A DNA stretch of 64,000 bases from Paramacrobiotus metropolitanus (lineage: Eukaryota > Tardigrada > Eutardigrada > Parachela > Macrobiotidae), in assembly GCF_019649055.1 (NCBI RefSeq), contig NW_026570273.1, forward strand, positions 248,001 to 312,000, read 5' to 3'. The position numbers were made by a program, and so were the translations under genes. Below the pieces are notes generated by a model. That model did not search any database, was not told the origin of the DNA, and saw nothing but the letters and a program-made list of their open reading frames with translations. Below, piece by piece: positions 9,380 through 32,489 of the stretch (position 1 is the first letter of the stretch; each line of letters opens with the position of its first letter).

Positions 9380-9525
9380 AAAATTACTTTCTTGTGTAGC
9401 TGTTTGTTTCTTGTTTAGCTTGTTTCTTGTTTTAAAATTACTTTCTTGTTTAGCTGTTTAGCTTTCTTGTTTAGTTTAGCTTTCTTGTTTAGCTTCTTAC
9501 TTTCTTGTTTTACTTTTGGACAACC
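9380..9525 (+). repeat. TTTCTTGTTTAGC-type short tandem repeat
   Basis: A pyrimidine-rich run repeats a unit close to TTTCTTGTTTAGC five to six times with slippage variants. It sits in the duplicated segment, whose other copy near 2.95 kb lacks the expansion. Confidence 0.7.
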
Positions 9526-10809
9526 TCTAGGAAAATTCTATAATAAAGAAATCCAGAGACTTTTACTTCTCGGACCAGTTATCACCGCCCAGTTCGGCAG
9601 GTCAATCGGCTTTTTACGAAAGCTTTGAAAAACGTCTCCACTTTTCACCGTTCTTTGAATCCTCGCTTTCCTGTTATAGTTGAGGTTTTCACCGGGCACA
9701 TTGATATTACTGTCATTGCAACAAGACAATACGTGCGGTGTAATTGCAAAAAGTTTTTCTCTTTACTAGCTGATGGAATAGTTTTTCCCTTTAGCTAATG
9801 AAATTCTGGCAATAAAACGGTCTGCGCTTACAGGATGCAATGATTAGTTGCCGAACGGATAACTGGGAGTGCCAAAGCCAGTTTGGTGGCCCATTGTGGC
9901 CAAAGAGCGTATAAATGTCCTTATCGACGGCTATAGACTCATGCACGATGCGGCGTGCTTGTGACCACGACACGGTCAACACACAACTAATTTGTGGTGC
10001 AGTCAGTATAAATTACTGTATTTCTTGCTATATAATATTTTTTCTATTTCAGTGGTGTTTTCAGAATGGAAACCACGACAACCCACCGTTTATTTCGTTT
10101 AATAATCTGCCGGATTTCATGACCATTATCGTTGGTTTTCGTTGGTGTTAGCGACCCTTTTCATTTAATCGTTCCTCACAAATTTCGGTGCCGACAATTA
10201 TCTGCGAAGCGCCGTAGTTGGGATGACTTTGTTATCAACATTTTTGAATTACTTTCCGAAGGAACAATGGTCAGGATCTTAGTTGACTTTTCTACCGGTC
10301 AGCGGAACTTTAAGGTTACCATTGCTCAGCTCTTTATCGTCAAATGGGCTAAAACATACAGAACTGGGTAGTGTTGGTCGCACCTCAATTCCAGTCGGCG
10401 TTTCGAAATTCCGAGATGACTCCGCGAAAACTGATAATGTGCTAGCCAAAGTTGCCCACGTCTGTCGTAACAAAGAACAGTCAATTCGTACATCTGTCTC
10501 CCGTTCTCTAGTAACCATCATTTTACTTTGGTATACAGTACTGAATAAATCAGGAATTTCGATTAAACAAGAGACCGGGCTAATGTTAGCGCATAGTTCA
10601 AGTTCGGTCCCATAACGCTTACTGCAAATATTTCCAAATTAAAAAGAAGCCGTTCAACAGAATATACCTAAGTTTAGCCGTGGGAAGAGAATACTGAGCA
10701 CTGTTTACCTGCATGGCACATGCTCGCGCGATGACCGTTCCGGCATGCTTAAAACAACCTAGTCCATTCGCCTTACTGCGAACATGGTAAAAAAATAGGT
10801 GACTGCTAT

Positions 10810-10902
10810 GCGCCCCGACAAACCGGGCGCTTAGAATTTAGCTATGCGCCCCGGTGTCCGGGCGCACAGAATTTGGCTTTGCGCCCCGAATTTCCGGGCG
10901 TA
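10810..10902. repeat. Three GC-rich hairpin units, left end of the element
   Basis: Three units of about 37 bp each contain GCGCCCCG, a 4-6 base spacer and CCGGGCG(C), so each can fold into a short strong hairpin. The units are linked by TAGAATTTA- or CAGAATTTG-like spacers. The right end (17885-17945) carries the inverted counterpart. They may be the terminal inverted repeats or transposase binding sites; this is inference. Confidence 0.7.
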
Positions 10903-11331
10903 GAAATATCGGCGATTTTCTAATTTTCTTACGCTTTTTACATTGTTTGGCTTCTTTTATGTATTTTCCTGTCGTGTTGTAGAATACGCTATACTGTTTG
11001 ATGATGTCATATACCAAAATGCGTCCAGACTTTAGGCAACAGGCGCTTTCCAAAAAATCTGGAGAGGCAGTGGGAAAGCTGCTAACTTTATTGTGCGCAT
11101 GAACAGAGGACAGCCTATGACTCAATCTGTAATTTATTAGCGATTACTATGGTCTTGTGCATAGTAATCCAGTAGACTTCCGTGTCGTTCTAGATGGCCT
11201 ATACGCACATGACGGACAAACCAGTGTTGCTTATTTGCTTACTGTAAAACTACTGAAAATCAGGATCAGATTGTAGATATGGCACGATCGGTACACTGTT
11301 TCGTCACGCACGAAACAATTTTAATGTATTC

Positions 11332-12272
11332 AACAGAAACACAGAAACAGTAACAAACTGTATTGGAGCCATGTATCTTTACTGGACTACCGAAAAAGCA
11401 ACAATATCGTTATTATGGCAGCAGCTGCGACTCTATAACAGAAACGCAGAAACGGCAACATTTCAATAAGTATGACGGCGCCAGCTGTATGTCTGAAGAA
11501 ACACCGAAACAGCAACATTTAAAGCATGATCACTATTGATGGCTGTTCTATTTAAACAGAAACACAGAAACCGCAACATTTTATATATAAAATGCCGTAA
11601 TTCTACAGAAACACAGAAACAGCGACATTTTATATGGGAACTGCTGTATTCTTAGAGAAACACAGAAACAGTGACATTTTATATAGGAACTGCTGCATCC
11701 TTAGAGAAACACAGAAACAGCGACATTTTATATAGGAACTGCTGTATTCTAACCGAAACATAGAAACAGCGACATTTTATATGTGAACTGCTGTATTCTT
11801 ACAGAAACACAGAAACAGCGACATTTTATACTGGTACTGCTGTATTCTTACAGAAACACAGAAACAGCGACATTTTATACTGGTATGCTGTATTCTTACC
11901 GAAACACAGAAACAGCGACATTTTATTTGGGAACTGCTCTAGTCTTACAGAAACACAGAAACAGCGACATTTTATATGTGAACTGCTGTATTCTTACCGA
12001 AACACAGAAACAGCGACATTTTATTTGGGAACTGCTGTAATCTTACAGAAACACAGAAACAGCGACATTTTATACTGGTACTGCTGCATTCTTACCGAAA
12101 CACAGAAACAGCGACATTTTATTTGGGAACTGCTGAAGTCTTACAGCAACACAGAAACAGCGACATTTTATACTGGTACTGCTGTATTCTTACAGAAACA
12201 CAGAAACAGCGACATTTTATATCGTTATTGCTGCATTCTTACAGAAACGCAGAAACAGCGACATTTTATATT
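11332..12272 (+). repeat. ~49-bp minisatellite array, left subterminal
   Basis: About 17 units share the core GAAACACAGAAACAGCGACA followed by TTTTATA and a variable tract ending in CTGCTGTATTCTTA. The first four units are divergent and irregularly spaced, while those from about 11600 are nearly identical. Open frames through the array are products of the repeat period, not genes. The same unit occurs inverted at 16660-17570. Confidence 0.92.
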
Positions 12273-12768
12273 TGTGTAGTACAATATCTATTTTTCGGTG
12301 AACCTCATATTTTCCGCGGTCAGAGTTATATGTCTGTTCGCTCGACTGCAAAAGAGTGCGCAATCGCGGATTGGTCTGTTCATTTATACTTTGACATTTC
12401 GTGACGTGTTGATGACAAGAAAATTAAGCAAGACTCTGAATGGCAGAAAGGTAAGCGCGGCATATAACGGAAACAGGTGTTAGTTTGTGAATCTTAATTA
12501 AGTTGAAGGTCAGAGTTCCGACTACCTCAATAACTTTTTGTGTTTCAGCTCATTATTCTCAATATTTCGGTCCAGCCACCACAGTAACAAGACAATGTAG
12601 ACCAAAGCCAGGTCTTTTGAAGGTTCATACAAAACATGAATGATACATTAAAAATTGCCAGTAGCATTTAAAAAGTCAAAACAGGTGATCAAAAGAATTC
12701 GAGACGCTTTATGTTTAAGCCAAGGAGTCTTTAAGCGCTTTAAGGTAAACACAACTGAAATACCGGTG

Positions 12769-13609
12769 TTACAAATATCGGCGCTCAGTGAACGTTCGGG
12801 GACCAGGCCCCACAACTCTACGTTTTGTTTTCAGGCAGTACATAATATAGCGGTTCCGGTGAACAATTAGCCGATTAATAAAAAAGATTTGGTGATCACG
12901 AGTCATCGAATTAAGTTGTTTTTTATATTTCACTAACCAGCTAAAGGTCTGCTCTGCAGCCATGGTGTTAATACACAAATCTGGCTCCCCTTCCGTTTTA
13001 AGAGCTTTGGAATCATACAACTGGCGGCAAGACGGATTTTTATGATTGGCTATATGCAGGCCGTCTATCACCTTACGCACATCTTTCCACATCCAGCAGT
13101 ACGGCTCCGGAAGTGGCAGCGGTTCTCTGCTTGCCTTCAGGCGATTAAGCTGGCACATATTATCGTATGCCACAACAAATCGTCCCCACTCTGACTGTGG
13201 AATCTCCTGCAGGCGTTGGTACAGCCAAACGACAAAAATCAAGTAAACCTGACCAAGGCTTTCAGCTCTAGCGAAACAAATACACAAAATTAGTATAAAA
13301 CAGTACATTAGTTTAAAAGATGATTTTTTTATACGTACACTTATGTTAGCCAAAGTAAAAGGCTGCACACATCCAAAATAAAGCAAAATTAAGCGCTTTA
13401 TAGACCCACCGGAATATAGGAGCGAAAGAATCGATTATTCCAGAACCTCGAACAATGAAAAAGTAACCGCGGCTCAGCCTTCCAAAAACTGGATACCTGA
13501 ACGGATGCCCATTTCTCTCTTTAAGCCAAATCTTGCCTAAGGAAACTATGTTGTCGATGGGACTTGTCACAGGTACAACATATATTTTTAAAGGAATCGC
13601 TAATGCCAC
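12769..13609 (-). CDS. KDZ-like DDE transposase candidate (C-terminal exons)
   Basis: The main exon runs from an acceptor near 13268 to the stop at 12769. It encodes a conserved-looking run: FVVAYDNMCQLNRL, then CWMWKDVRKVIDGLHI, NHKNPSC, NTMAAEQTFSWL, and a helical tail with FINRLIVHRNRY. The YDNMC motif with a following Asp and a late Glu-Gln-x-Phe-x-Trp block resembles KDZ-type (Kyakuja-Dileera-Zisupton) transposases and related metazoan proteins; this is from memory, not a search. An upstream exon at about 13430-13609 (ATG at 13609) reads IPLKIYVVPVTSPIDNIV and FRYPVFGRL. The exon joining at 13290-13430 is uncertain. It is divergent to the helicase gene and probably mobilises the element. 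An N-terminal half could be missing. Confidence 0.5.
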
Positions 13610-14059
13610 CCCATCGCACTACAAAATGCTGTTGTTAGTACTTGTTACTACAGCGCACTATTGCGCGCATCCACTACTACAGCATTTCTGCAATAATCAT
13701 TATTAAATTAGTTTTTTCATCTAGCATTTTAAGTGCGAACAATTTGTACTAATTTTTTCGCTACCACCTAATTTGAAATGCTTAAGTAGTGTTTTTAGCG
13801 TATTATTGTGCATTCGACCGGAAGTCGATTGATTACCTGTTTTGTAGTGCGGTCTAGTGACATTAACCAACGCCCTTTTTTAAAGTGTACACTTGATTCA
13901 GTTCAGAAAAAAATAATAAACATTTGGTTTTAAATATTGTAATGGAGCAGCTATTTCGCATATCTAGTAATTATTGTAATAAACAAATAACATGTAAAAG
14001 AAACCCTGCTATACGTACACAGCTATAATGCTATGACTCATAAAAACAGTCAATGAGCG

Positions 14060-16502
14060 TTGGTATGGTCAGGAGCTGTGCTGATGGGTTTGCATTCGGA
14101 AAAAGTTCGAGAGAAACTCAAGGCGTGTCCAACAATCGTATGCGAAGGAGTAACTGGTACGGGAAAGTCACTATGTACCAGCATGGCGGGAAGGATTATT
14201 GCTCCAAATGCCCATGATATTCTGGAGTATAAATCCATCACGCCATCCATGCTCAGAGAAGAAGTTTTCGCTAAACAAAATCTGCCAGTGATACTCCATG
14301 ACCCATCTGACGTAGAAGTTGTCCAGCATTTGGTTGAAGAGACCTTTGAAGCCAAGCCATTAAGCAAACGCGGGGAGCGGCTTGTTCCACACTGCATGGC
14401 AATTGTATCTTGTAACGAAGATATGCTGGCAAAAATAAGGGCGACAGGACGGTAAGCATTCTTGCGAAATTAAGAAAATATGTCTAAGCAAATTAAATGT
14501 GGACGCCGATTCGCGGCTCTTTCGGTAAACGTCTGGTAAATCTTGGTAAGTGTTTGAATCGTTTTATGATTACATGAGATTACGTTCATTTTTACTTCCA
14601 TTAACACGTTGTAATTACAACTTTACCATCTCGGAAAACGATTCAGCTATGCAAACACAAATTACGTTTCAGAATGCGCGTGATGTCGCGGTTGGCGTTA
14701 ATATCGTTTCCCGTCGCTGTCCAGCTCACTGCTGTGCAGCGTGTTGAAGTGCCTGATCTGGCAAACACGCTTTCACATCTTTTGCCACGTTTTCTTGAGC
14801 TGGATGACGACGATTTTTTGGAGATATGCAGACTTTCCGATAAGCTTCAAGAACAAATTGAGGCCCATCTGGAGAAGTACGGATTACGGGAATCGCGATC
14901 GCGAATTGCCGGCCATATCGCCCTGTTATACGCGTTTACAAAAAAGGTGCAGATTTTCTAATTTTAAGCCAATAAAGCGTCACCTAATTTTTTTTATACA
15001 GGCACTGGCAATAATCGGTAAAACCGGCATAGTGCCAAGTGACCTTGATGGATACGTAATGTCAGCCATGTGCAAAACCGCATCGACTTGGCAAACGCCA
15101 GCACTACCAAAGCGACGCGACTTGGAAATTCCAACGCAAGTTTCTACGCCAACAAAGCGACCAAAATCGCTCGCCTCGTTTGGGACAGTGCTATCTACGG
15201 CAGTTTCGGCATTAGATCCCGGCCAGGTACCCTGTTGAACACGCAGAGTTTATTACACACAACAAATTTGTAACCGGCGGAAACTGTAGGCTTGATATCA
15301 TTAGTAAAATATTAGTAGTAATTAACTTCTGTTGACCTTTTAGGCCAGACACATTATAATTATATAAGCTACATAAATTAGTTCTTATACCATGAAGTTG
15401 CCATGTGTTGTTACGGCTAGTTTTTGCTTCTGTTTACAGATTGGGAGATATGTTAAGCTGTCAAAGGATAAGAAACTGGTGTACTTCCGTGACCGCGAAG
15501 CTGAAAAGCTGATCTTATCCCAGGGCGGAGAAGTGAGCTTTCTTAATGGCATCCGTGACGTTGTCCGAGCCATACCAGGTGCAAGTGTTTCCAAAGATGC
15601 CCGCTTTATGGGCGAATCTGGGACCCAGAAGGCTATGGCAGTGCCGGTTGGATACATATCTGCCGATTTACTGCAGCATTTGGGAGGAGACATCGAAAAA
15701 GGTGTGTGAATAATATCTGGCATGCGAGATAAGGTTCATTATAAGAATTTTAGCTGTAGATGTCGAGGAAAAAGTTGTTAACGCTGAGATCGTGGAAGAG
15801 GACGCTTTGACCACTGCCGCGCTGGCACCAGATAAAGCGACATTACCATCACCGGCAACTTCCGAAGGTAATCCATTAAATTCAGCAAATTTCGATTAAA
15901 AATCATAACTAGCAAATGTGTTATTGACCCCTTGGCCAGAACAAAATCCTGAAGCAGCAAAGTCATGCGGCCAACGGACTGGAGGCAGTAGTTACTGGGC
16001 AGGGCAACCGTTACCGAAACCGGTATTGAGCGACGGCATACCAACAGACACCCACAGGCGCAAACTCGATTTTGGTGATTAAAAAGTGATTATCGTAATG
16101 AATAGACTTTCGAATAATTACATAATATTTTTTTACAGATGTTCCACCAGTTGTACCAAATAATGCGGAAGCCTGCGGTAAGCAGACTGTGAAAAAGAAA
16201 GCCTTCAAGCCAGACGTTGTTACGCATAGTGCTGTAAGTAAAAACAGAATTCACTTGTTGTTTTGACGTATCTGACTATTTTCTAATACAGTATTGTTAA
16301 ACATATTTTTAATAATCAAATTAAACATTTTCAGATTTGCTGCACTTGCAACACAGATGCCACAAACCAGAAGGAATCGGTTACGTGAGTAAACTGCGGA
16401 AAGGTTTTCCACATTCATTGTGTTATTCCGCGGCGATCAAAAAGCAAGCTCGACAAGACAAAATGGAACTGCAAACCCTGCATTACGTCAGCAGCAGAGT
16501 GA
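14060..16502 (+). CDS. SF3/AAA+-like helicase with C-terminal zinc ribbon, nine exons
   Basis: The nine exons are 14060-14451, 14673-14946, 15002-15226, 15440-15701, 15754-15867, 15940-16074, 16139-16233, 16335-16384 and 16445-16502. All have GT-AG borders and matching phases, giving about 530 aa. Exon 1 has a Walker A (GVTGTGKS), a Walker B-like PVILHDPSD and a sensor/motif C (AIVSCNED). The exon 1-2 junction restores an Arg-finger-like GRMRVMSRLALISFPV, the order seen in superfamily 3 helicases. The third and fourth exons encode a domain I do not recognise (YVKLSKDKKLVYFRDREAEK). The last two supply CxxC and CKPC, a zinc-ribbon-like pair. The Walker A lies only ~30 residues from the frame start and an in-frame stop lies just upstream, so an N-terminal exon may be missing; ATG 14084 is the first Met. 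It probably acts in replication or mobilisation of the surrounding element. Confidence 0.72.
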
Positions 16503-16659
16503 AACGGCAGCAATTCGGCAGCAACTTCTCCCCTGTTCCATTGGCACTGCATCGGTTTAGGCCACTCTGTCAACAGTTATTGTCGCATTTAATCATACCT
16601 ACATATGAGGTTTTTGTGTATTTTCTGGTGCAATGATATGGTGGTTTAGCTCAAGGAAG

Positions 16660-17570
16660 TCGCCGTTTCTGTGTTTCTGTAGAAATACAGGAGTTCCCAT
16701 ACAAAATGTCGCTGTTTTTGTGTTTCTTTAGAAATCGAGCAGTTCCCATAGAAAATGTCGCTGTTTCTGTGTTTCTGTAGAAATCGAGCAGTTCGCATAT
16801 AAAACGTCGCTGTTTCTGTGTTTCTGTAGAAATAGAGCAGTTCCCATAGAACATGTCGCTGTTTCTGTGTTTCTGTAAGACGATATAAAATGTCGCTGTT
16901 TCTGTACGAATACAGCAGCACCCATTATATAATGTCGCTGTTTCTGTATTTTGGTAAGAATACAGCAGTACCAGTATAAAATGTCGCTGTTTCTGTGTTT
17001 CTGCAAAGACTACAGCAGTTCCCAAATAAAATGTCGCTGTTTCTGTGTTTCTGTAAGAATACAGCAGTTCACATATAAAATGTCGCTGTTTCTGTGTTTC
17101 GGTAAGAATACAGCAGTACCAGTATAAAATGTCGCTGTTTCTGTGTTTCTGCAAAGACTACAGCTGTTCCCATATAAAATGTCGCTGTTTCTGTGTTTCT
17201 GTAAGAATACAGCAGTTCACATATAAAATGTCGCTGTTTCTGTGTTTCGGTAAGAATACAGCAGTACCAGTATAAAATGTCGCTGTTTCTGTGTTTCTGT
17301 AAGAATACAGCAGTTCACATATATTATAATGTCGCTGTTTCTGTGTTTCTGTAGAAATACAGCAGTTTCTATATAAAATATCGCTGTTTCTGTGTTTCTG
17401 TAGAAATACAGCAGTTTTTATATAAAATATCGCTGTTTCTGTGTTTCTTCAGAAATACAGCAGTTCCCCTATAAAAATGTCGCTGTTTCTGTGTTTCTGT
17501 AGAAATAATAGCCGCGGATGTCTCTGTTTTTCCGATGTTTCTGTGTTTCTGCAGAAATACCGCAGTACCA
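16660..17570 (-). repeat. ~49-bp minisatellite array, right subterminal, inverted
   Basis: About 18 units carry the complement of the left array core (TGTCGCTGTTTCTGTGTTTC followed by TGTAAGAATACAGCAG). The arrangement with 11332-12272 is head-to-head, so the element could form a large stem. Short subgroups alternate variable tracts (TTCACATATAAAA versus TACCAGTATAAAA), suggesting higher-order amplification. Confidence 0.92.
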
Positions 17571-17884
17571 CAGTTATTATACAGTTCCCTATCGAAACGC
17601 AACATGCGTACGAAACAGTTCACTGGTGCCAGAAACGAAACGTTGTACGGATCATGCCACTTCTGTCAGATTGATTCGGTGAAGTTTTGGAAATTTTTTC
17701 AATAAATCAGCTGATAAAAAGGCGATTAACTAAACGAAAGCGTATCTCTTAAGTGTCCTCAGATTTGCAGGCCCCTCTCAACTTCTTCTCTTCTTCGACA
17801 TTAGTGGTTAATCGAACAAAATAAAATTAAGGAAAAACAATTAACTGCCAGAGAAACATGAAAATTTTGATATTTTTCTCTGCC

Positions 17885-17945
17885 CAAGCATTCGGGGCGC
17901 AAAGCCAAATTCTGTGCGCCCGGCCACACGGGGCGCACAGCCATT
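17885..17945. repeat. GC-rich hairpin block, right end of the element
   Basis: It contains CGGGGCGCAAAGCCAAATTC and a hairpin GCGCCCGGCCACACGGGGCGC, the inverted match of about 10840-10900. Homology to the left end stops at about 17945. Confidence 0.7.
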
Positions 17946-17949
17946 TCGA

Positions 17950-18705
17950 AAAAAATATTTACTTGATTTTTGTTATTAACTTATACATATTTATATGTTG
18001 ACAATAATGGCTCGCGAAATTTCGTAGACTTACACTTTGTTAACCGACACTATATCGGGCGCACTAAGTGTGCCGCCATGAGGCCAGGGATGAAACCCTA
18101 GGGTACTCTAAAGAACCTGAGAAAGTAAAAAAACCAGAGAAGCTTAACAAAACATTAGTTCGAGTGTCGTGACGGGACAACAACCCGTCGGTTTGGTGAA
18201 GTGACGGTCGACGAATTTCGACTGAAAGGTTGTTGGATATAGTATTTTATGGTGATAAAGCTTATTATCGGTAAAGCATTGTATCTGTATTCGTAGCGTA
18301 GAAGTATTTGATGGGATCGATCCGCCACAGACCGAAAGGAAACTTTGTTCTTACCCCGCAACCTTGCGACTCGTTTTTTCGTACAAACTCAGAAATTAAA
18401 CTTGTTAAATCTATTGGTTTATGGGATGGTAAGGAATTTGTCGGGCCAAAAAATACAGGCAAACGGTTGGGAACACGTCTGGTTTATAACAGACGAGATA
18501 TCGGGCACTTTATCTGCATGCAACGTTGCGCTAACAACAGTTACGAGCCTCGTAACAACGAAATGAAATACCTCAGTCCCCCGAGTGACCTTCTCTAGAA
18601 ATATTCAAAAAATACTTAAGATTGTATAAATGCAACGCGTAATCCGTCCTATCCAAGCAAAGCAGTCACACCTTATAAGGTATTTTTACTGAGTCATTGA
18701 GTGAC
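17950..18705. other. Intergenic, no supported gene
   Basis: Short open frames on both strands at 18155-18600 have no domain, leader or conserved splice pattern. One isolated CGGGCGCAC run at about 18056 resembles the hairpin arms of the neighbouring element. Confidence 0.45.
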
Positions 18706-18710
18706 AACCT

Positions 18711-19925
18711 TCACGGAAACCGGAAGTTGACCGTAAACCCGCTGGCCGTTTCAGGCTCTGATCTCTCCTGGTCCGCTGCTTGCTGCTCTGAGGGTTGCAA
18801 TTCAATCATCATGCTGTTCAAGGCGGTTAGCGTCAGTTTACTCAGCGTCGACACGTCCAAGTACATTCCTGGATATAAAGTCCAGTTGAATTGTCGTTGA
18901 TTCTGTGGAATCCGTGGATCACTGCACTGCAAATTGTCTAAGATCTGCAAAAATTAAATTCAGAATTGGTCAACGGCAGTAAAAATAAGCGAGCGACAAT
19001 CGGCTAAGCATACTGAACCAGGTGAAATCCTTCACATTCGTGCTGACAAACGTAAGTACAACCCAAGGAAATGGTGGTTTGTTTTATAAATTTTTTTGAA
19101 AAATACCTCCGTGTTAATATTACCTTTTTGATACGGGCAATGTTAGAACTCTCCTTCTTGTCGGCGACCTTCCGAGTCCAAGCAGAAAGGACACCCGTGT
19201 CAATGCTCGAAGCCGCAACACCTCCTTCCAACAGGTTCCACAAATCACACCGTAGATTGAACGACTGCAGACTAAGGACACCACTGTAGACCTGATCGTT
19301 TAGATTGTTTGGATACAATGCCGAAAATGCAAAGTTTTTCCAGATGAGACGGTCGATCGCATCAGCAGCATTTGCGCAAGCATAGCTTAGATTGGCAATT
19401 TCCTCACCAAAGGTCGTCATTTTAGTCCACACGAATCTGCTAATAATCACCACCACCAACCTCTTCCCCGGCATTTGTGGCAGGCTTTTTTCAATAGCGC
19501 TGATCAATCGCAGACAGTAGTCTAAATCAGCATAACAGGCATTCCCTATAATAATGCGTTCCGTCGTCACCGTGATGAGTTTGCACAGGCACTGACCGAC
19601 CATAGCAGCTGCTTTATTTATTGCGTTTTTCGTAGCACAGGACGCAAACGATACGCGAATTTCATTGGAGTGCTCATCCTGATTTATTAAAGAATTCCAC
19701 AAAGCGCACACACGACGGTATTGCGTGTGGGTGACAGTGTCCAAAAACTGGAAGACTTGTTCGAGGATGTTTAAGGACAAAAGCTTAAAATCTTCTGGAT
19801 CTTTTTCAATTGCGAGATCATGCATGGTTTCTTCCATAGCTTCAATCAGCGGCAACCAACGCGTGACCCGAAAAGTCCAACCATCGGAAAGGCGCTTTTT
19901 CAAATCTTCTCTAGCGTTTGCCAAG
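18711..19925 (-). CDS. F-box protein, copy 2 (intact F-box and C-terminal exons)
   Basis: Exon 19925-19124 follows a TATGCAG acceptor. It encodes KKRLSDGWTF, then an F-box-like helical pair at about residues 48-80 (LNILEQVFQFLDT, YRRVCALWNSLI). About 180 residues of a lineage-specific region follow, with repeated hydrophobic/Trp blocks (TTERIIIGN, KRLVVVIISRFVW, AIDRLIWKN, SGVLSLQSFNLRCDLW, VLSAWTRKV). The donor is after ARIKK. Exon 18944-18711 supplies DPRIPQNQ and LDVSTLSKLTLTALNSM, a segment also present in the copy at 32639-32490. F-box proteins recruit substrates to SCF ubiquitin ligases; the substrate is unknown. The upstream Agenet exon (22049-21372) probably belongs to the same gene, but simple joining does not keep phase, so an extra exon would be needed. 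Confidence 0.75.
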
Positions 19926-20142
19926 CTGCATACCTACGATGAAAAAAGTAGATGCGCAGCTCTGCAGACAACTGCTTCTCTCCTTTAATATTTAATCAGT
20001 TATGCCCTTCGGCAGTGTTCTGCTAAACAACGTTTGTTAAGTTTTGGCTCTCGTCCATCTGCGTGGGATGCTCATTACTTTGGAGTTTGGCCACTTTTAC
20101 AGATAATATAAAGCTGTTGCATACCAATATTGCGCTGTCGCT

Positions 20143-27961: not shown

Positions 27962-28208
27962 GAAAAGCACACAGCGGACAAAACATGCAGACTGTAAGTT
28001 CGGAGAATATTCCGGGTTTTATTGAAAATCGTTTAACTTACACATTAACACAACCCTGTTTTCGTCAGTCCTACAATATTCTACGTTTACTCTATAATAT
28101 ATTCCTTCAACCGACACAGAACCAAGTAATGACATCAGTTTCTAACGCAAGACATAAATTAGTATGAATGCGCCTGGTTAATATTACCGTGGGAACACAA
28201 CAGCAAAA

Positions 28209-29525
28209 TTACAACAAAAACACTTCAGATAAGCCGTCGGTGTCCGGTAAGGTGCCCATAACGCAAAGCGCGTTTCCTCTTTGAATCTGTATCGACAGTC
28301 GCTGTCGGAAAAACTCTTTGGAACGTGGTTGGCCGGTAGCCTGAGCGATCCCACGTCCTACCCGGTCCACTAGGCTTTTCGCGCCTTCACCCTGTGGGCC
28401 GTATATTTCGAACGCAGCAGCAGCGAAGTTGTATCGCGGAGATAGCCAAGCGTGCTTGAGTCGCTTAGCGTTCTCGGCAATTTCGGCAGCGGCTCCAGCT
28501 GTAACAGCGGTGCGGTCGATGTATGTTGCGGCTAACGTGTCCACGCATGTAACATCGATCGCGAGTGGCTTTCCATGATCCCATGGGATTAACGTCACTA
28601 CGTCCGGGCGTTTTCTGTCAGCCTTCGATAGACCTTTTGGTTCCGTTCTGGAGGGAAACCCAGCCGTTTTCAGCCCTCGAGCGAACTCGGCGCTGAGTCC
28701 GTCGTGTCTGGGGAGGCGTCCGGCGGAGCGTTTACAACGAAGACCGTGTCTGCCCAACTCGTCAACCTCTGAGCCACAGACGCACGTGTGCGGTGTTACA
28801 ATTGGTGCGGCTATCCGGAGAGCGACGCTGATCTGGAAAGCGGTGTCTTCCAGCAGGTTTCCCAGACAGGCGGCTGGAAGAGCGTGCAACCAGGCTCCGG
28901 ATTCCGGCGTCGACATCGCTTTGAAGTGAGCTACGTCCTCGGGTTTAACGCGGATGCTTGACAATCTCTTATGCGACTCCGTGCAGACCGGAGAGTCCCA
29001 GGCTTTCTGCACGTGGCGAAATGACTCTGCGGGCGGTTCAGCTGGGCCGCTGAGCTTACGCCATGCCTGAACGGCGGCCGTGGTGTCAGTTGGTGCGGCT
29101 GTTGAGCACAGGCCGGCTATCAGGGGACGGAGCGAGGAAGCCGATGCCAGATAGGCGGAAGGTGCTAGCTCCTCGGTGCGTCTAATCCCTAAGCCGGCAA
29201 GGCGGACGGGCAGTGATGCCTGCAACCAAGTCGGGTAACTCATCATAACGTTACAAATGGACTCGAGTGCTTCCCGGTACATCATATCTAGCTTGAAGAG
29301 TTCTTCCGGGAACATCCACGCTGACGATGTCCGGAGGACGTGGAGTATTTTTGGTACTCCTAATGCGTGTGACAGCAGAAACAAAGCCTGGTGTTTGGGA
29401 ACCAACTGCAGTCGTGCGGCCATCATGTGCACTTCCTCCGTCTTTTTTGCGATCCACGGTGATACACCCGGTGGGAGTAAAGGTGTCCCCAGTAGAGAAA
29501 GCTGATCCGGTGAGACAACTGCCAA
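28209..29525 (-). pseudogene. C-terminal part of an RLE-type (R2-like) non-LTR retrotransposon polyprotein
   Basis: The 438-codon frame ends with an R2-type endonuclease region. It has a zinc-knuckle-like CVCGSEVDELGRHGLRC (CxC-x9-H-x3-C) and then a PD-(D/E)xK-like nuclease signature (KRPDVVTLIPWDHGKPLAIDVT). The same order is present in the fragment at 36877-38051. In R2-like elements this domain nicks the target to prime reverse transcription. The reverse transcriptase that should precede it is absent, because the frame starts at the boundary with the + coiled-coil ORF, so the copy is 5'-truncated. A similar protein could also be a stand-alone domesticated nuclease; truncation at a junction argues against that. 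Confidence 0.7.
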
Positions 29526-29531
29526 TCCGGG

Positions 29532-31592
29532 GTGGTCAGCTACAAACTGATGGGGGGGTGGCTAGCTACAAACTACTTACCTGCACCCAACGAAAGGGTC
29601 AGTTCACCGCCCAAGCGACCTTCACCAAGTGGAAGTGAGTCGACCTGGGTAATGGGAACCTTACCAATGGTGAGATCGACCAAGTCGATAATAGGTCGAC
29701 AGGTCGACCGACCGCCAAAATTCAAACTCGGCGGGTCGGAAAGTGAACGAACACCGTCACCGACCGATGAAGTTTTTGGGACGACCACCACAAAAGTGGT
29801 TCGCCCGGATAGCAGGGATGGATTCTTCCGAACGCCGATGACACCCCACTTGGGTAATCATAGGTACCAAGCAAGCACGCTTGAGTACACGGCACGGAAG
29901 TGGATTGCATCCACACCTCCAGAAAGGATTGACTATATCAACCGACTCCGGGAACGATACCGCCAACCGATTACACAAACCGTGTTGGCTGACCAAATCG
30001 TCAACTCCGCGGAAGGTACGATGTCGCAGTCGGCAAACGCCCATAAACTCGAACGAATGAGATGGGAAAAGGAACTCGCCGAGGCTAACAAAGTCATATC
30101 CGACCAACAACGGCGGATTGACCAGCTCGAGTGTCACCTCAAGAGGTCCGACAACCCATGTCGATACGACTTCGAAGAGGTCGATAAACTCAAAGGCACA
30201 CTGGAGCGGTCCGTGGAATCGGTCTTTGAACTAAAAAGACGACTCGCCACCGTGAAAAAAGACCTAGCTGATACACAAACTGCACTGGTCGAATCGGAAC
30301 TGGTGGCGAGAGCATTCCACCAACAGTTGAATCAGGCCAACGAGGAAGCCGAGGTTTACCGAAACGAGGTCGACAGATACATAGTCGAACTCAAGCAGGC
30401 CGACAATGAGGTCGACCAACTGGCCGACCAGGTCCATGCACTTAACGATGTGCTGAAGGAGGAACAGAAGCTCCGAGCACAGCTGGAATACAGTCTGGCG
30501 GAAGCTCAGAAAGTGAACGAAGCGCAACGGAACCGCATCGTTCACCTCGAAGCCCGTGAAAACGAACTCTATACCTACGGAGAAAACGCGGACAAATGTA
30601 TCGACGACCTGAATTGGTACATCGATGGGATGGATACGGAGGCACGGTGCCTCCAGGAGAAAACGAAACACCTGGACCGAACCAGGGTAGAACCTCCATC
30701 CTACAGGACGTCGATGGCAATGGACTACTATCCGTCGCAGACTGTTCGGAACATCCTGTGGGATATCCAACCTAAGGAGTCCGAGAAGAAGAAACCGACC
30801 TACTTCGTGGGAGTGGTTACAAACAACCCGCTCTCCGGAACTCCTCAGCAACAGCCTTTACCGCATCATCCAGAACCGGAACACAACACGTCGACTGCGG
30901 CGCCACATGTGCCAACGTCGAATGTTCCGACAACAACAACGGCTGGTACCTACACAAGTACCACGTATGCAACGCACACAACGATGCATGCGCCAGCGCC
31001 CACCGCGTCCCACCCGAACGGACCACGGGGAACGGAACGTGATACAGGACGGCGACTGGAAGGACGAACAGGCTCTCATCCCAACATGGATGACTTCGGA
31101 CTCTTAACTATACGCGACTCAGATTATCAGAGAGCCCGGGTGGGGTCATACACCAATGATCCTCCCCAAGGACATAACCGACAACCCGATTCGAAACACT
31201 TCGCTGATAATCCGGAACAGTCCGACCGAACGCCTCGGTATCGACCCACAGAAGGTCGAGTACCACCAAGGAGGCCGCAAACAAATCAGTTTGGACGGGT
31301 CAACGATAACCCGGCCGGATTCTTTGGTTGGACCCGGAAACGTGTGGTCAGACCTGGGTATTTCGGTTCTTTCACCGTACCGGTACGTCCCCCAAGGAAT
31401 CCCAGCGGTTCGATTCCGCTCCATCGCCATTTTTCGGAATTTCCTCAACAGACAGGATTTTCATCTGACCGCCCTCCCTCGCTGAGATCATCACGGACAG
31501 CCGACTTATGGCTGCCTCTGTTATATGGTAGCAGATCGTGGTTCACGATGTGCTATGTTAGCGGGCCGGGGCGTCTGTTGTCTCCGGTGTAG
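29532..31592 (+). CDS. Coiled-coil protein, 686 aa, retroelement-gag-like or novel
   Basis: The frame is open for 2.06 kb in GC-richer DNA. Residues 1-120 are Pro/Ser/Thr-rich. Residues about 171-380 form a long coiled coil with regular heptads (ELAEANKVISDQQRRIDQLE and similar). Residues about 430-520 are Thr/Pro/His-rich. The last ~60 residues (from about 31402) are encoded by the tail of a SINE shared with 39941-40070, so the annotated C-terminus is not ancestral. The start is uncertain: an upstream duplicated motif (GCTACAAACTGATGG/GCTACAAACTACTT) surrounds the first ATG. Codon use differs from the AT-richer neighbouring genes. No family is recognised. Position next to an RLE fragment and the gag-like architecture suggest a mobile-element structural protein. 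Confidence 0.5.
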   Translation: MVSYKLMGGWLATNYLPAPNERVSSPPKRPSPSGSESTWVMGTLPMVRSTKSIIGRQVDRPPKFKLGGSESERTPSPTDEVFGTTTTKVVRPDSRDGFFRTPMTPHLGNHRYQASTLEYTARKWIASTPPERIDYINRLRERYRQPITQTVLADQIVNSAEGTMSQSANAHKLERMRWEKELAEANKVISDQQRRIDQLECHLKRSDNPCRYDFEEVDKLKGTLERSVESVFELKRRLATVKKDLADTQTALVESELVARAFHQQLNQANEEAEVYRNEVDRYIVELKQADNEVDQLADQVHALNDVLKEEQKLRAQLEYSLAEAQKVNEAQRNRIVHLEARENELYTYGENADKCIDDLNWYIDGMDTEARCLQEKTKHLDRTRVEPPSYRTSMAMDYYPSQTVRNILWDIQPKESEKKKPTYFVGVVTNNPLSGTPQQQPLPHHPEPEHNTSTAAPHVPTSNVPTTTTAGTYTSTTYATHTTMHAPAPTASHPNGPRGTERDTGRRLEGRTGSHPNMDDFGLLTIRDSDYQRARVGSYTNDPPQGHNRQPDSKHFADNPEQSDRTPRYRPTEGRVPPRRPQTNQFGRVNDNPAGFFGWTRKRVVRPGYFGSFTVPVRPPRNPSGSIPLHRHFSEFPQQTGFSSDRPPSLRSSRTADLWLPLLYGSRSWFTMCYVSGPGRLLSPV

Positions 31593-31741
31593 CAGATGTG
31601 GTTCGCGATCTGCTGATGCCATGCTGGAGAACTGAGGTCGGTTGCCCAGTTCATTCCAGGGGATTCCTTGGGGGACGTACCGGTACGGTGAAAGAACCGA
31701 AATACCCAGGTCTGACCACACGTTTCCGGGTCCAACCAAAG
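31322..31741. repeat. 82-bp inverted repeat with ~256-bp spacer
   Basis: Arms 31322-31403 and 31660-31741 are reverse complements without a visible mismatch (CTTTGGTTGGACCCGGAAAC at the outer ends). The SINE tail lies in the spacer, directly after the left arm. Confidence 0.88.
31402..31535 (+). repeat. tRNA-derived SINE, 5'-truncated copy
   Basis: The segment starts inside a tRNA-like T-arm (GCGGTTCGATTCCGCTCCATCGC) and continues with a body ending TGCCTCTGTTATATGG. The whole segment recurs on the minus strand at 39941-40070. Confidence 0.75.
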
Positions 31742-32489
31742 GACTGTTGTAGCGTGTAAACCTCAGTGACCGTTATACCCATCTAGTTGGTGACCGTAGA
31801 GCAATGTACCATGAATCAACAATCCATACATTGAAGACATTCATCAAAGTGTGAATAGAATTTTGCCGCATGCAACGCACAAGATATGCTGGATACAGAT
31901 TTCCGCTGATCTGCTGCTTTTTGACGATGTAGAATAGGTCAGGAATGTTCTTATTGCAACTTTGTCCGTGCGTGTCCAACAAATGATATTACATTATTAA
32001 TTTCAAGTTTTCAACTTTCGAAAAATTACAATGCACAAATTGTACAAAACTGTCAGTGCATTTCCCTGGTTCACGGAATGTCTTTCAAAGAGAGAGGTTT
32101 TAAAAAAAAGTATACAATAGCAAAATACAAAAATTTATATGAAACAGAGACATGACATACAAACACATGTTGCATAGAACTAGCGTGCATAATGGCCATG
32201 CATTATAATTTTCCAGTATAAATGTATACTACAGTAAATTAATAACCAGAAAAGTAAATAAAAATATAGCCCGATAGCTGCTACTGATCGGCTGTGGAAC
32301 ATGTCAAAGGATGATAAACATACGTAGTAACATAATACAAATTAAATAATCTCAAAATTTGTAATCTCTTGAGGAGGGTGTTGTACGCCCGCGATTACAT
32401 GATTCTGCACATCATCATGCAATTCAAGCACTTCAGGGTTATGGAAAGTTTTCATTTCCAATTTCCAAACGATGGGTCTTGACTCTCGA
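31742..32489. other. Intergenic, AT-rich, no supported gene
   Basis: No splice-supported or domain-bearing frame on either strand; likely 3' flank of the F-box copy 3 gene on minus. Confidence 0.45.

Follow-up and report, generated by a model that had tools for sequence, protein, structure and literature searches.

The stretch of DNA analysed here (the window) comprises 64,000 nucleotides of the tardigrade Paramacrobiotus metropolitanus, C53:248001-312000 of an assembly of 169.8 Mb and 533 contigs, and contains a transposable element with terminal inverted repeats; C-numbers denote contigs of this assembly or the copies found on them. We estimate with a probability of about 0.65 that this element is a deleted copy of a two-gene transposon of the Kyakuja-Dileera-Zisupton (KDZ) type, in which an ATPase carrying a PHD finger acts as a required accessory motor. 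Larger relatives of 24-30 kb encode, head to head, a KDZ DDE transposase with a CxC5 cluster and an SF3-like P-loop ATPase with a C-terminal PHD finger. The anatomy of the element as described below is very probably correct.

The ATPase gene is paired with a KDZ gene across the genome

When the genome was searched with the ATPase core exon, 17 matches were obtained, the window included, and KDZ sequence was found head to head beside 15 of them. In 14 copies (C53, C335, C38, two on C9, two on C7, C56, C171, C150, C92, C4, C50 and C420) a KDZ match lies within 12 kb, and in the fifteenth, C121, KDZ N-terminal exons are located 4 kb away. The other two, C63 and C126, showed no KDZ sequence in the stretch read; C126 is a sibling of the window copy, and C63 retains an array and a terminus of the larger family. 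ATPase C-terminal exons were also kept by two KDZ copies without a core match (C44/L032 and C7:447k/L062). The search with the KDZ frame gave 61 match rows, many of which are fragments, and one copy may yield several rows.

An identical TTGGTACAGATTGAGCCACTTCTG is present at nine ends, eight of them fetched and one located in C1, beyond which the flanks are unrelated. A search for a terminus pattern of the larger family gave 38 places with up to two mismatches and 52 places with up to three, and a reversed control gave no match in either case. Both genes lie between outward-facing inverted termini in C56 (365946-390595), C92 (16840-40738) and C7 (2282539-2312341), elements of 24-30 kb that were read in part. 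Perfect 8-bp duplications flank C92 (GTGCTGCA), C7 (CATTGTAT) and C98, three of the six facing end pairs checked, a seventh pair, C150:202368-203688, falling outside this check. Direct alignment of left and right sides revealed no inverted ends in C335, C38, C4, C50 and C420, the stretches of C335 and C38 being short of the ends found later. The conserved frames of C335, C38 and C50, when each stretch was compared with eight others (tblastn, E<=1e-4, frames of at least 60 amino acids), fell into two divergent spans, KDZ and ATPase, and the remaining frame matches were mirror frames, array or flank matches among C38, C63 and C1, and a C335 stretch matching C126. The original prediction, an annotation made from the window alone, had proposed a two-gene KDZ transposon, and this is borne out by the KDZ sequence beside most ATPase copies and by C56, C92 and C7, which hold both genes within inverted copies of one terminus; far from never occurring together between the same inverted repeats elsewhere, the two genes do so in these elements.

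Some further features of the larger family were seen. Its own subterminal arrays are built from a unit of 92-94 bp (L066 4-1093, L063 7742-8772, L036 2689-3308, L052 8960-9901), whereas the unit in the window family measures 49 bp. At C9:864759-891432, two nearly alike KDZ-ATPase units are arranged tail to tail with their facing core exons ~7 kb apart, either an inverted duplication or a nested insertion. At C121:31338-118798, the KDZ C-terminal exon and one terminus are located ~70 kb from the KDZ N-terminal exons, the ATPase and the other terminus, perhaps an element split by an inversion.

Both genes are under purifying selection

The ratio of nonsynonymous to synonymous substitution rates (dN/dS) was determined for a selection of 13 ATPase pairs and 11 KDZ pairs, two and four of which, respectively, gave undefined values. 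The ATPase core had a dN/dS of 0.03-0.05 in five pairs of copies, for which the KDZ exon gave 0.04-0.09. Three deeper ATPase pairs gave 0.05-0.12, two of them being saturated (dS over 2). Purifying selection between copies implies that those whose ATPase worked were more successful in leaving descendants, and no other result points as strongly to a role of the ATPase in transposition. Since the ATPase core shows a dN/dS like that of the transposase, the element probably depends on its ATPase, a need that we hold with good confidence.

The window element is a deletion derivative

The left GC-rich repeat of the window element aligns with its inverted right partner over ~100 bases, the 8-bp duplication AAAAAAAT is present on both sides (8/8 matching), and two mutually inverted arrays of a 49-bp unit lie inside the ends, in agreement with the inverted repeats that had been recognised earlier around the element. 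The left terminal repeat region has at least 40 related places scored in the genome, including the window copy. Among nine fetched short copies, eight, of 1.0-2.0 kb, are cut in the same way as the window element (NGG...CATTTCG with an 8-bp duplication), and their target duplications match at 8 of 8 positions in seven copies and at 7 of 8 in one; the ninth copy, L056, differs at its right end and does not figure in the duplication check. A simple AT-rich flanking repeat is weak evidence when taken alone, and the ends of the window element are credited because the eight short copies share the cut sites and 8-bp duplications. The features of the window element are as follows.

10789..10796, no strand: target-site duplication, left copy, 8 bp, AAAAAAAT
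10797..17948, no strand: whole element, 7152 bp, between terminal inverted repeats
10797..10930, + strand: left terminal repeat region, GC-rich modules
11333..12271, + strand: left subterminal array, 49-bp unit
12769..13434, - strand: open frame encoding the C-terminal part of the KDZ transposase, with its YDNMC and AAEQTFSW segments
13397..13474, - strand: preceding KDZ exon fragment (RGYFFIV...FAPIFRW); the sibling match stops here
13472..13572, + strand: ATPase N-terminal exon, 3' part, fused to KDZ at the 13472-13474 deletion junction
13583..13844, no strand: ~262 bp in the window copy, absent from sibling C126 (L050 6008/6017)
14073..14451, + strand: ATPase core exon with Walker A, Walker B and motif C
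14673..14946, + strand: ATPase exon with Arg-finger-like RVMSRLALISF, then a conserved region
15002..15226, + strand: ATPase exon 'hel4'
15440..15701, + strand: ATPase exon 'hel5', conserved C-terminal region
16335..16502, + strand: PHD-finger exon, with a stop codon inside in the window copy
16659..17569, - strand: right subterminal array, 49-bp unit, inverted relative to the left array
17880..17948, - strand: right terminal repeat region
17949..17956, no strand: target-site duplication, right copy, 8 bp, AAAAAAAT

The KDZ match to sibling L062 stops at 13474, and the match of the ATPase N-terminal exon to sibling L050 begins at 13472; judged from these alignments, a single internal deletion has joined the middle of the KDZ gene to the middle of the ATPase N-terminal exon. 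It removed the exon with the candidate first catalytic D, the region of the divergent promoter and the 5' ends of both genes. With this fusion of the two genes and a stop codon inside the PHD finger, the window copy looks like an internally deleted, non-autonomous and non-functional derivative. Neither gene is complete, and the working two-gene system that had been envisaged for this locus gives way to a deletion derivative. The ~262-bp segment at 13583-13844 is perhaps a later insertion in an ATPase intron.

Outside the element, an adjoining frame of 309 amino acids at 19004-19933 on the minus strand matches the F-box (PF00646, E=5.5e-5, over the cut-off), and in the region 28001-32000 the GC content reaches 0.54 and the AT skew 0.23, unlike the remaining window.

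The KDZ transposase gene

The window frame 12769-13434 on the minus strand matches the Pfam KDZ family PF18758 with E=3.3e-5 and 24.1 bits, just below the curated cut-off of 26.6, and the KDZ exon of C38 alone gave no PF18758 match in Pfam. The CxC5 cysteine cluster PF18718 was detected in the C38 KDZ gene over its cut-off (E=1.8e-7, 31.8 bits, cut-off 26.9). In the larger relatives the KDZ gene extends upstream with an MDGLWK exon, which contains the candidate first catalytic D, the CxC5 cluster and N-terminal exons, and neither the MDGLWK exon nor the CxC5 exon nor the KDZ N-terminal exons were found in the window copy. A candidate DDE triad, consisting of D (MDGLWK, FDGIWK or VDGLWK), D (CYDN) and E (AEQTF), was recognised by eye in the frames of C335, C38, C50 and C420. 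The KDZ-like transposase gene that had been noticed from its YDNMC...EQxFxW pattern is upheld, in the window as a remnant.

The ATPase gene ends in a PHD finger

The ATPase exons of the window align with those of relatives and their GT/AG borders agree, by which five ATPase exons (the first in part only) and the PHD exon were confirmed. The small exons that had been suggested for the interval 15701-16335, and hence the total of nine exons, received no such confirmation. The confirmed exons encode GVTGTGKS as Walker A, VILHD as Walker B, AIVSCN as motif C and an SR...ISF segment, so that all the motifs listed in the original prediction, including the Arg-finger-like segment, are present on exons with borders supported by relatives. 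Walker A, Walker B, motif C and the following SR...F segment are kept in every group compared. Conserved frames upstream of the first ATPase exon used (in C335, C121 and C38; e.g., C335 7792-7980 and 8443-8703) are probably the ATPase N-terminus.

The tail of the protein, previously taken for a zinc ribbon, turned out to be a PHD finger. In sibling C126 it matches PF00628 with E=2.7e-8 and 34.1 bits (cut-off 24), and in the window the finger is interrupted by a stop codon. PHD or PHD-like (PHD/C1-like) fingers end the ATPase genes of C50, C4 and C420, and a partial finger is present in C63. Between two ATPase exons of C335 (L064), positions 9468-9957 match C126 (L050) in several frames at 47-75%, which may reflect an inserted repeat common to both.

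Assignment of the ATPase to the SF3-like type

SF3 proteins are defined by Walker A, Walker B, a motif C with an N, and an Arg finger. All of these were found in the ATPase, in the order and spacing of SF3. Counted from the lysine of Walker A to the aspartate of Walker B, and from there to the asparagine of motif C, the distances are 44/38 in seven of the eight genome copies measured, 45/38 in the window, and again 44/38 in the Hypsibius exemplaris protein P0122, compared to 43/42 in a P4 alpha-type SF3 protein and 67/29 in MuB, these two single proteins being the yardsticks used. The distance from the motif C asparagine to the Arg-finger arginine is 16-23 as joined, versus 15 in the P4 alpha-type protein.

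A homolog search with A3 (E<=1) returned P0121, an annotated protein of P. metropolitanus, and P0122 (BV898_19386, 349 amino acids), which is the one annotated ATPase relative found outside the P. metropolitanus genome, whereas a search with A1 (E<=0.01) returned no ATPase relatives. Since A1 came back empty although A3 found P0121 and P0122, this kind of search misses real relatives, and the absence of others is weak evidence. The N-terminal region of P0122 was also seen in C50 and C420, and the ATPase family is thus present in a second tardigrade. D5_N, DUF5906 and Pox_D5 gave no Pfam match in A1 (five rows), A3 (four rows, two of which are shared with A1), P0121 or P0122. An hhalign comparison with P4 alpha-type proteins gave probabilities of 26.9 (A3) and 3.5 (A1), in the Walker A region only, and a sequence search of the PDB with the ATPase yielded mostly Walker A matches to ABC transporters, and noise. 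Two peptide patterns gave 71 matches in viral contigs, none of which is an ATPase relative by these patterns. The Foldseek/VIA matches of the second AlphaFold model were generic AAA+ proteins in the PDB and a mixture of AAA, Rep and NS1 in the viral library, and were not counted as evidence for SF3. The right gene thus appears to be a P-loop ATPase of an SF3-like type, its SF3 membership being assigned by motif order and spacing. The earlier designation as an SF3-type helicase is compatible with these motifs, but no confirmation came from the family libraries, from hhalign or from the predicted structures.

Observations that weigh against the preferred interpretation

Several results speak against the interpretation that the ATPase is a required partner in a two-gene element. 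The pairing is one-way, as 15 of the 61 KDZ rows lie beside an ATPase core match and 46 are without one within 12 kb. No target duplication was found at C56, which contains both genes, or at C59 and C52. As for selection, two near-identical ATPase pairs gave dN/dS values of 0.45 and 0.91, with too few changes to tell, the window/C126 ATPase pair gave 0.26 and the window-type KDZ pair 0.16; the latter two fit decay. Stops occur in the ATPase cores of C38 and C126 and in the KDZ exon of C9. The five pairs with low dN/dS are not five independent tests, because three of them were drawn from the same three copies, C56, C7 and C121, and in C121 the KDZ exon used is 78 kb away from the ATPase.

A KDZ tree was built from 23 sequences out of the 61 match rows; several of its branches are weak, and it drew long-branch warnings. 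Seven of its 23 rows are without a detected ATPase: C1, C60 and C104 group among the paired kind, and C57, C129, C260 and C74 form a separate clade. The tree itself supports no more than the lack of a detected ATPase in the latter clade. The ATPase-less rows suggest that KDZ transposition as such does not need the ATPase, and imply that the partner is confined to certain KDZ lineages or that a divergent partner was missed.

The assignment of the protein itself meets objections as well. Searches of Pfam and NCBIfam with the joined ATPase yielded no family to which the core could be assigned, and PHROGs gave only weak primase/helicase matches (best E=0.021). The AlphaFold models were poor, with predicted local distance difference test (pLDDT) values of 39 (window exon alone) and 41 (P0121 and two further rows). 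The tails of C50 and C420 fall below the Pfam cut-offs and score best as C1 domains.

Proposed mechanism and alternative explanations

In the proposed mechanism, the KDZ transposase would excise the element and insert it elsewhere by cut-and-paste. The ATPase-PHD protein would assemble on the element, with the inverted subterminal arrays as likely loading sites, and would open or remodel the DNA around the element ends or the target, while the PHD finger would tether the complex to histone tails at chosen chromatin. Cut-and-paste is the simplest reading because of the inverted ends, the 8-bp duplications and the many internally deleted copies. The ATPase-PHD protein is most likely an accessory motor on the element or the target, the arrays being candidate loading sites and the PHD finger a putative chromatin tether, and the particular job that we assign to it is tentative, its chances being somewhat short of even.

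A serious rival, albeit one that we regard as unlikely, is that the ATPase resembles MuB, TnsC, IstB or TniB in being a regulator of target selection rather than an unwinding motor, with the PHD finger picking the chromatin. A DDE transposase together with an AAA+-type ATPase and a histone-reader domain is the layout expected for such a system, the fold of the poor model matches generic AAA+ proteins, and there is a weak Pfam match to TniB (E=0.16, 11.8 bits versus a cut-off of 22.4) covering Walker A only. However, neither family match nor motif spacing places the ATPase with MuB/TniB-type regulators, since the spacing in MuB is 67/29 instead of 44/38, although one MuB sequence is a thin control, and the hhalign probability is 0.9 to MuB versus 26.9 to the P4 alpha-type, both in the Walker A region only. 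Another possibility, which would retain the replicative transposition suggested by the original prediction, is that an SF3 replication initiator loads onto the iteron-like subterminal arrays and copies the element, after which the KDZ enzyme joins the product. The SF3-like motifs and the long tandem arrays near the ends would suit this scheme, as would the annotated origin repeats of phage P4, whose alpha protein has the nearer motif spacing of the two yardsticks. Yet the ends are ordinary inverted ends with 8-bp duplications, and copies are internally deleted down to 1 kb, as expected from abortive gap repair after excision, so that cut-and-paste with gap repair fits better than replicative movement. 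Furthermore, no third conserved frame was present in the partial stretches compared, and therefore no primase or nuclease partner was seen, other frames not having been domain-searched. We consider this replicative scheme improbable.

The element could also be the remains of a large virus-like or composite element, comparable to Teratorn, that integrates by means of the KDZ enzyme. The 24-30 kb elements have room for further genes, and the frame comparison ended ~4.8 kb before the C335 terminus on the ATPase side and at 252500 in C38, but in the parts compared, which amount to 15.0 kb for C335, 18.0 kb for C38 and 9.9 kb for C50, the conserved frames fall within the KDZ and ATPase spans, and the viral contigs contain no ATPase relative by the two peptide patterns, which makes such an origin very improbable. 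The window copy alone could not exclude that the two genes are chance neighbours, or that a captured host gene is hitch-hiking. However, the divergent pairing is maintained in 15 of 17 copies even though the ATPase cores go down to 26% identity with the window exon, and the low dN/dS of the ATPase in five pairs argues likewise, leaving this the least credible of the explanations; chance pairing as such is refuted by the pairing counts. Thus, an accessory motor in a KDZ transposon that moves by cut-and-paste remains the preferred interpretation.

Relation to known systems and significance

The usual picture of a eukaryotic cut-and-paste transposon is that of a single enzyme working with host factors. 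In comparison with the KDZ transposons, such as fish Zisupton and the fungal KDZ elements carrying TET/JBP, the present element adds a divergent SF3-like ATPase-PHD gene, and it resembles Zisupton in its 8-bp target duplication and inverted ends. Published work describes KDZ elements with 8-bp duplications and TET/JBP cargo (PMC12730594), nematode Zisupton elements whose genes are also multi-exon (PMC9297572), and Zisupton in the curated repeat libraries of two other tardigrades (PMC11071193). In the main texts the word 'helicase' occurs once in PMC12730594, for Helitrons, and is absent from PMC9297572, PMC11071193 and PMC12062965. In the literature searched, in which the founding KDZ papers were not included, no KDZ element was found described as having an SF3-like ATPase or a PHD protein for a partner.

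With the SF3 primase-helicases of the P4 alpha/D5 type, the ATPase shares the order of Walker A, Walker B, motif C and Arg finger and a similar spacing (near 44/38; 43/42 in the P4 alpha-type), but it lacks a detected Toprim, D5_N or DUF5906, which are present in P4 alpha, shows no significant sequence match, and has an added PHD finger. RAG1/RAG2 and ProtoRAG likewise combine a DDE recombinase with a separate partner gene, and RAG2 has a PHD finger. Here the transposase is KDZ-like and not of the RAG1/Transib kind, and the target duplication is 8 bp, whereas that of RAG/Transib is 5 bp. According to PMC8355894, the PHD finger of RAG2 binds H3K4me3 and the RAG2 core is a beta-propeller. The core of the present partner is an ATPase and not such a propeller. 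Bacterial pairs of a DDE transposase and an AAA+ protein are Mu A/B, Tn7 with TnsC, IS21 IstA/IstB and Tn5053 with TniB. The likeness lies in a transposase with a dedicated ATPase partner, but the present element differs in being eukaryotic, in its transposase, in its PHD finger and in an ATPase spacing unlike that of MuB.

The most far-reaching view would be that of an animal transposon lineage, independent of RAG and of Mu/Tn7, whose movement depends on an SF3-type helicase fused to a chromatin reader, with a DDE enzyme, an array-loaded motor of the replicon type, histone-guided targeting and possibly partly replicative movement of the 24-30 kb elements, which we think doubtful. What the data do present is an ATPase family without an acceptable Pfam or NCBIfam match, and a KDZ lineage whose second gene is, in the pairs compared, as constrained as the transposase. 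P. metropolitanus is kept in culture. Why a transposon would carry its own ATPase and PHD finger thus becomes a question that can be tested in an animal, and the element would form an independent parallel both to RAG1/RAG2, a transposase with a PHD partner, and to Mu, Tn7 and IS21, a transposase with an ATPase.

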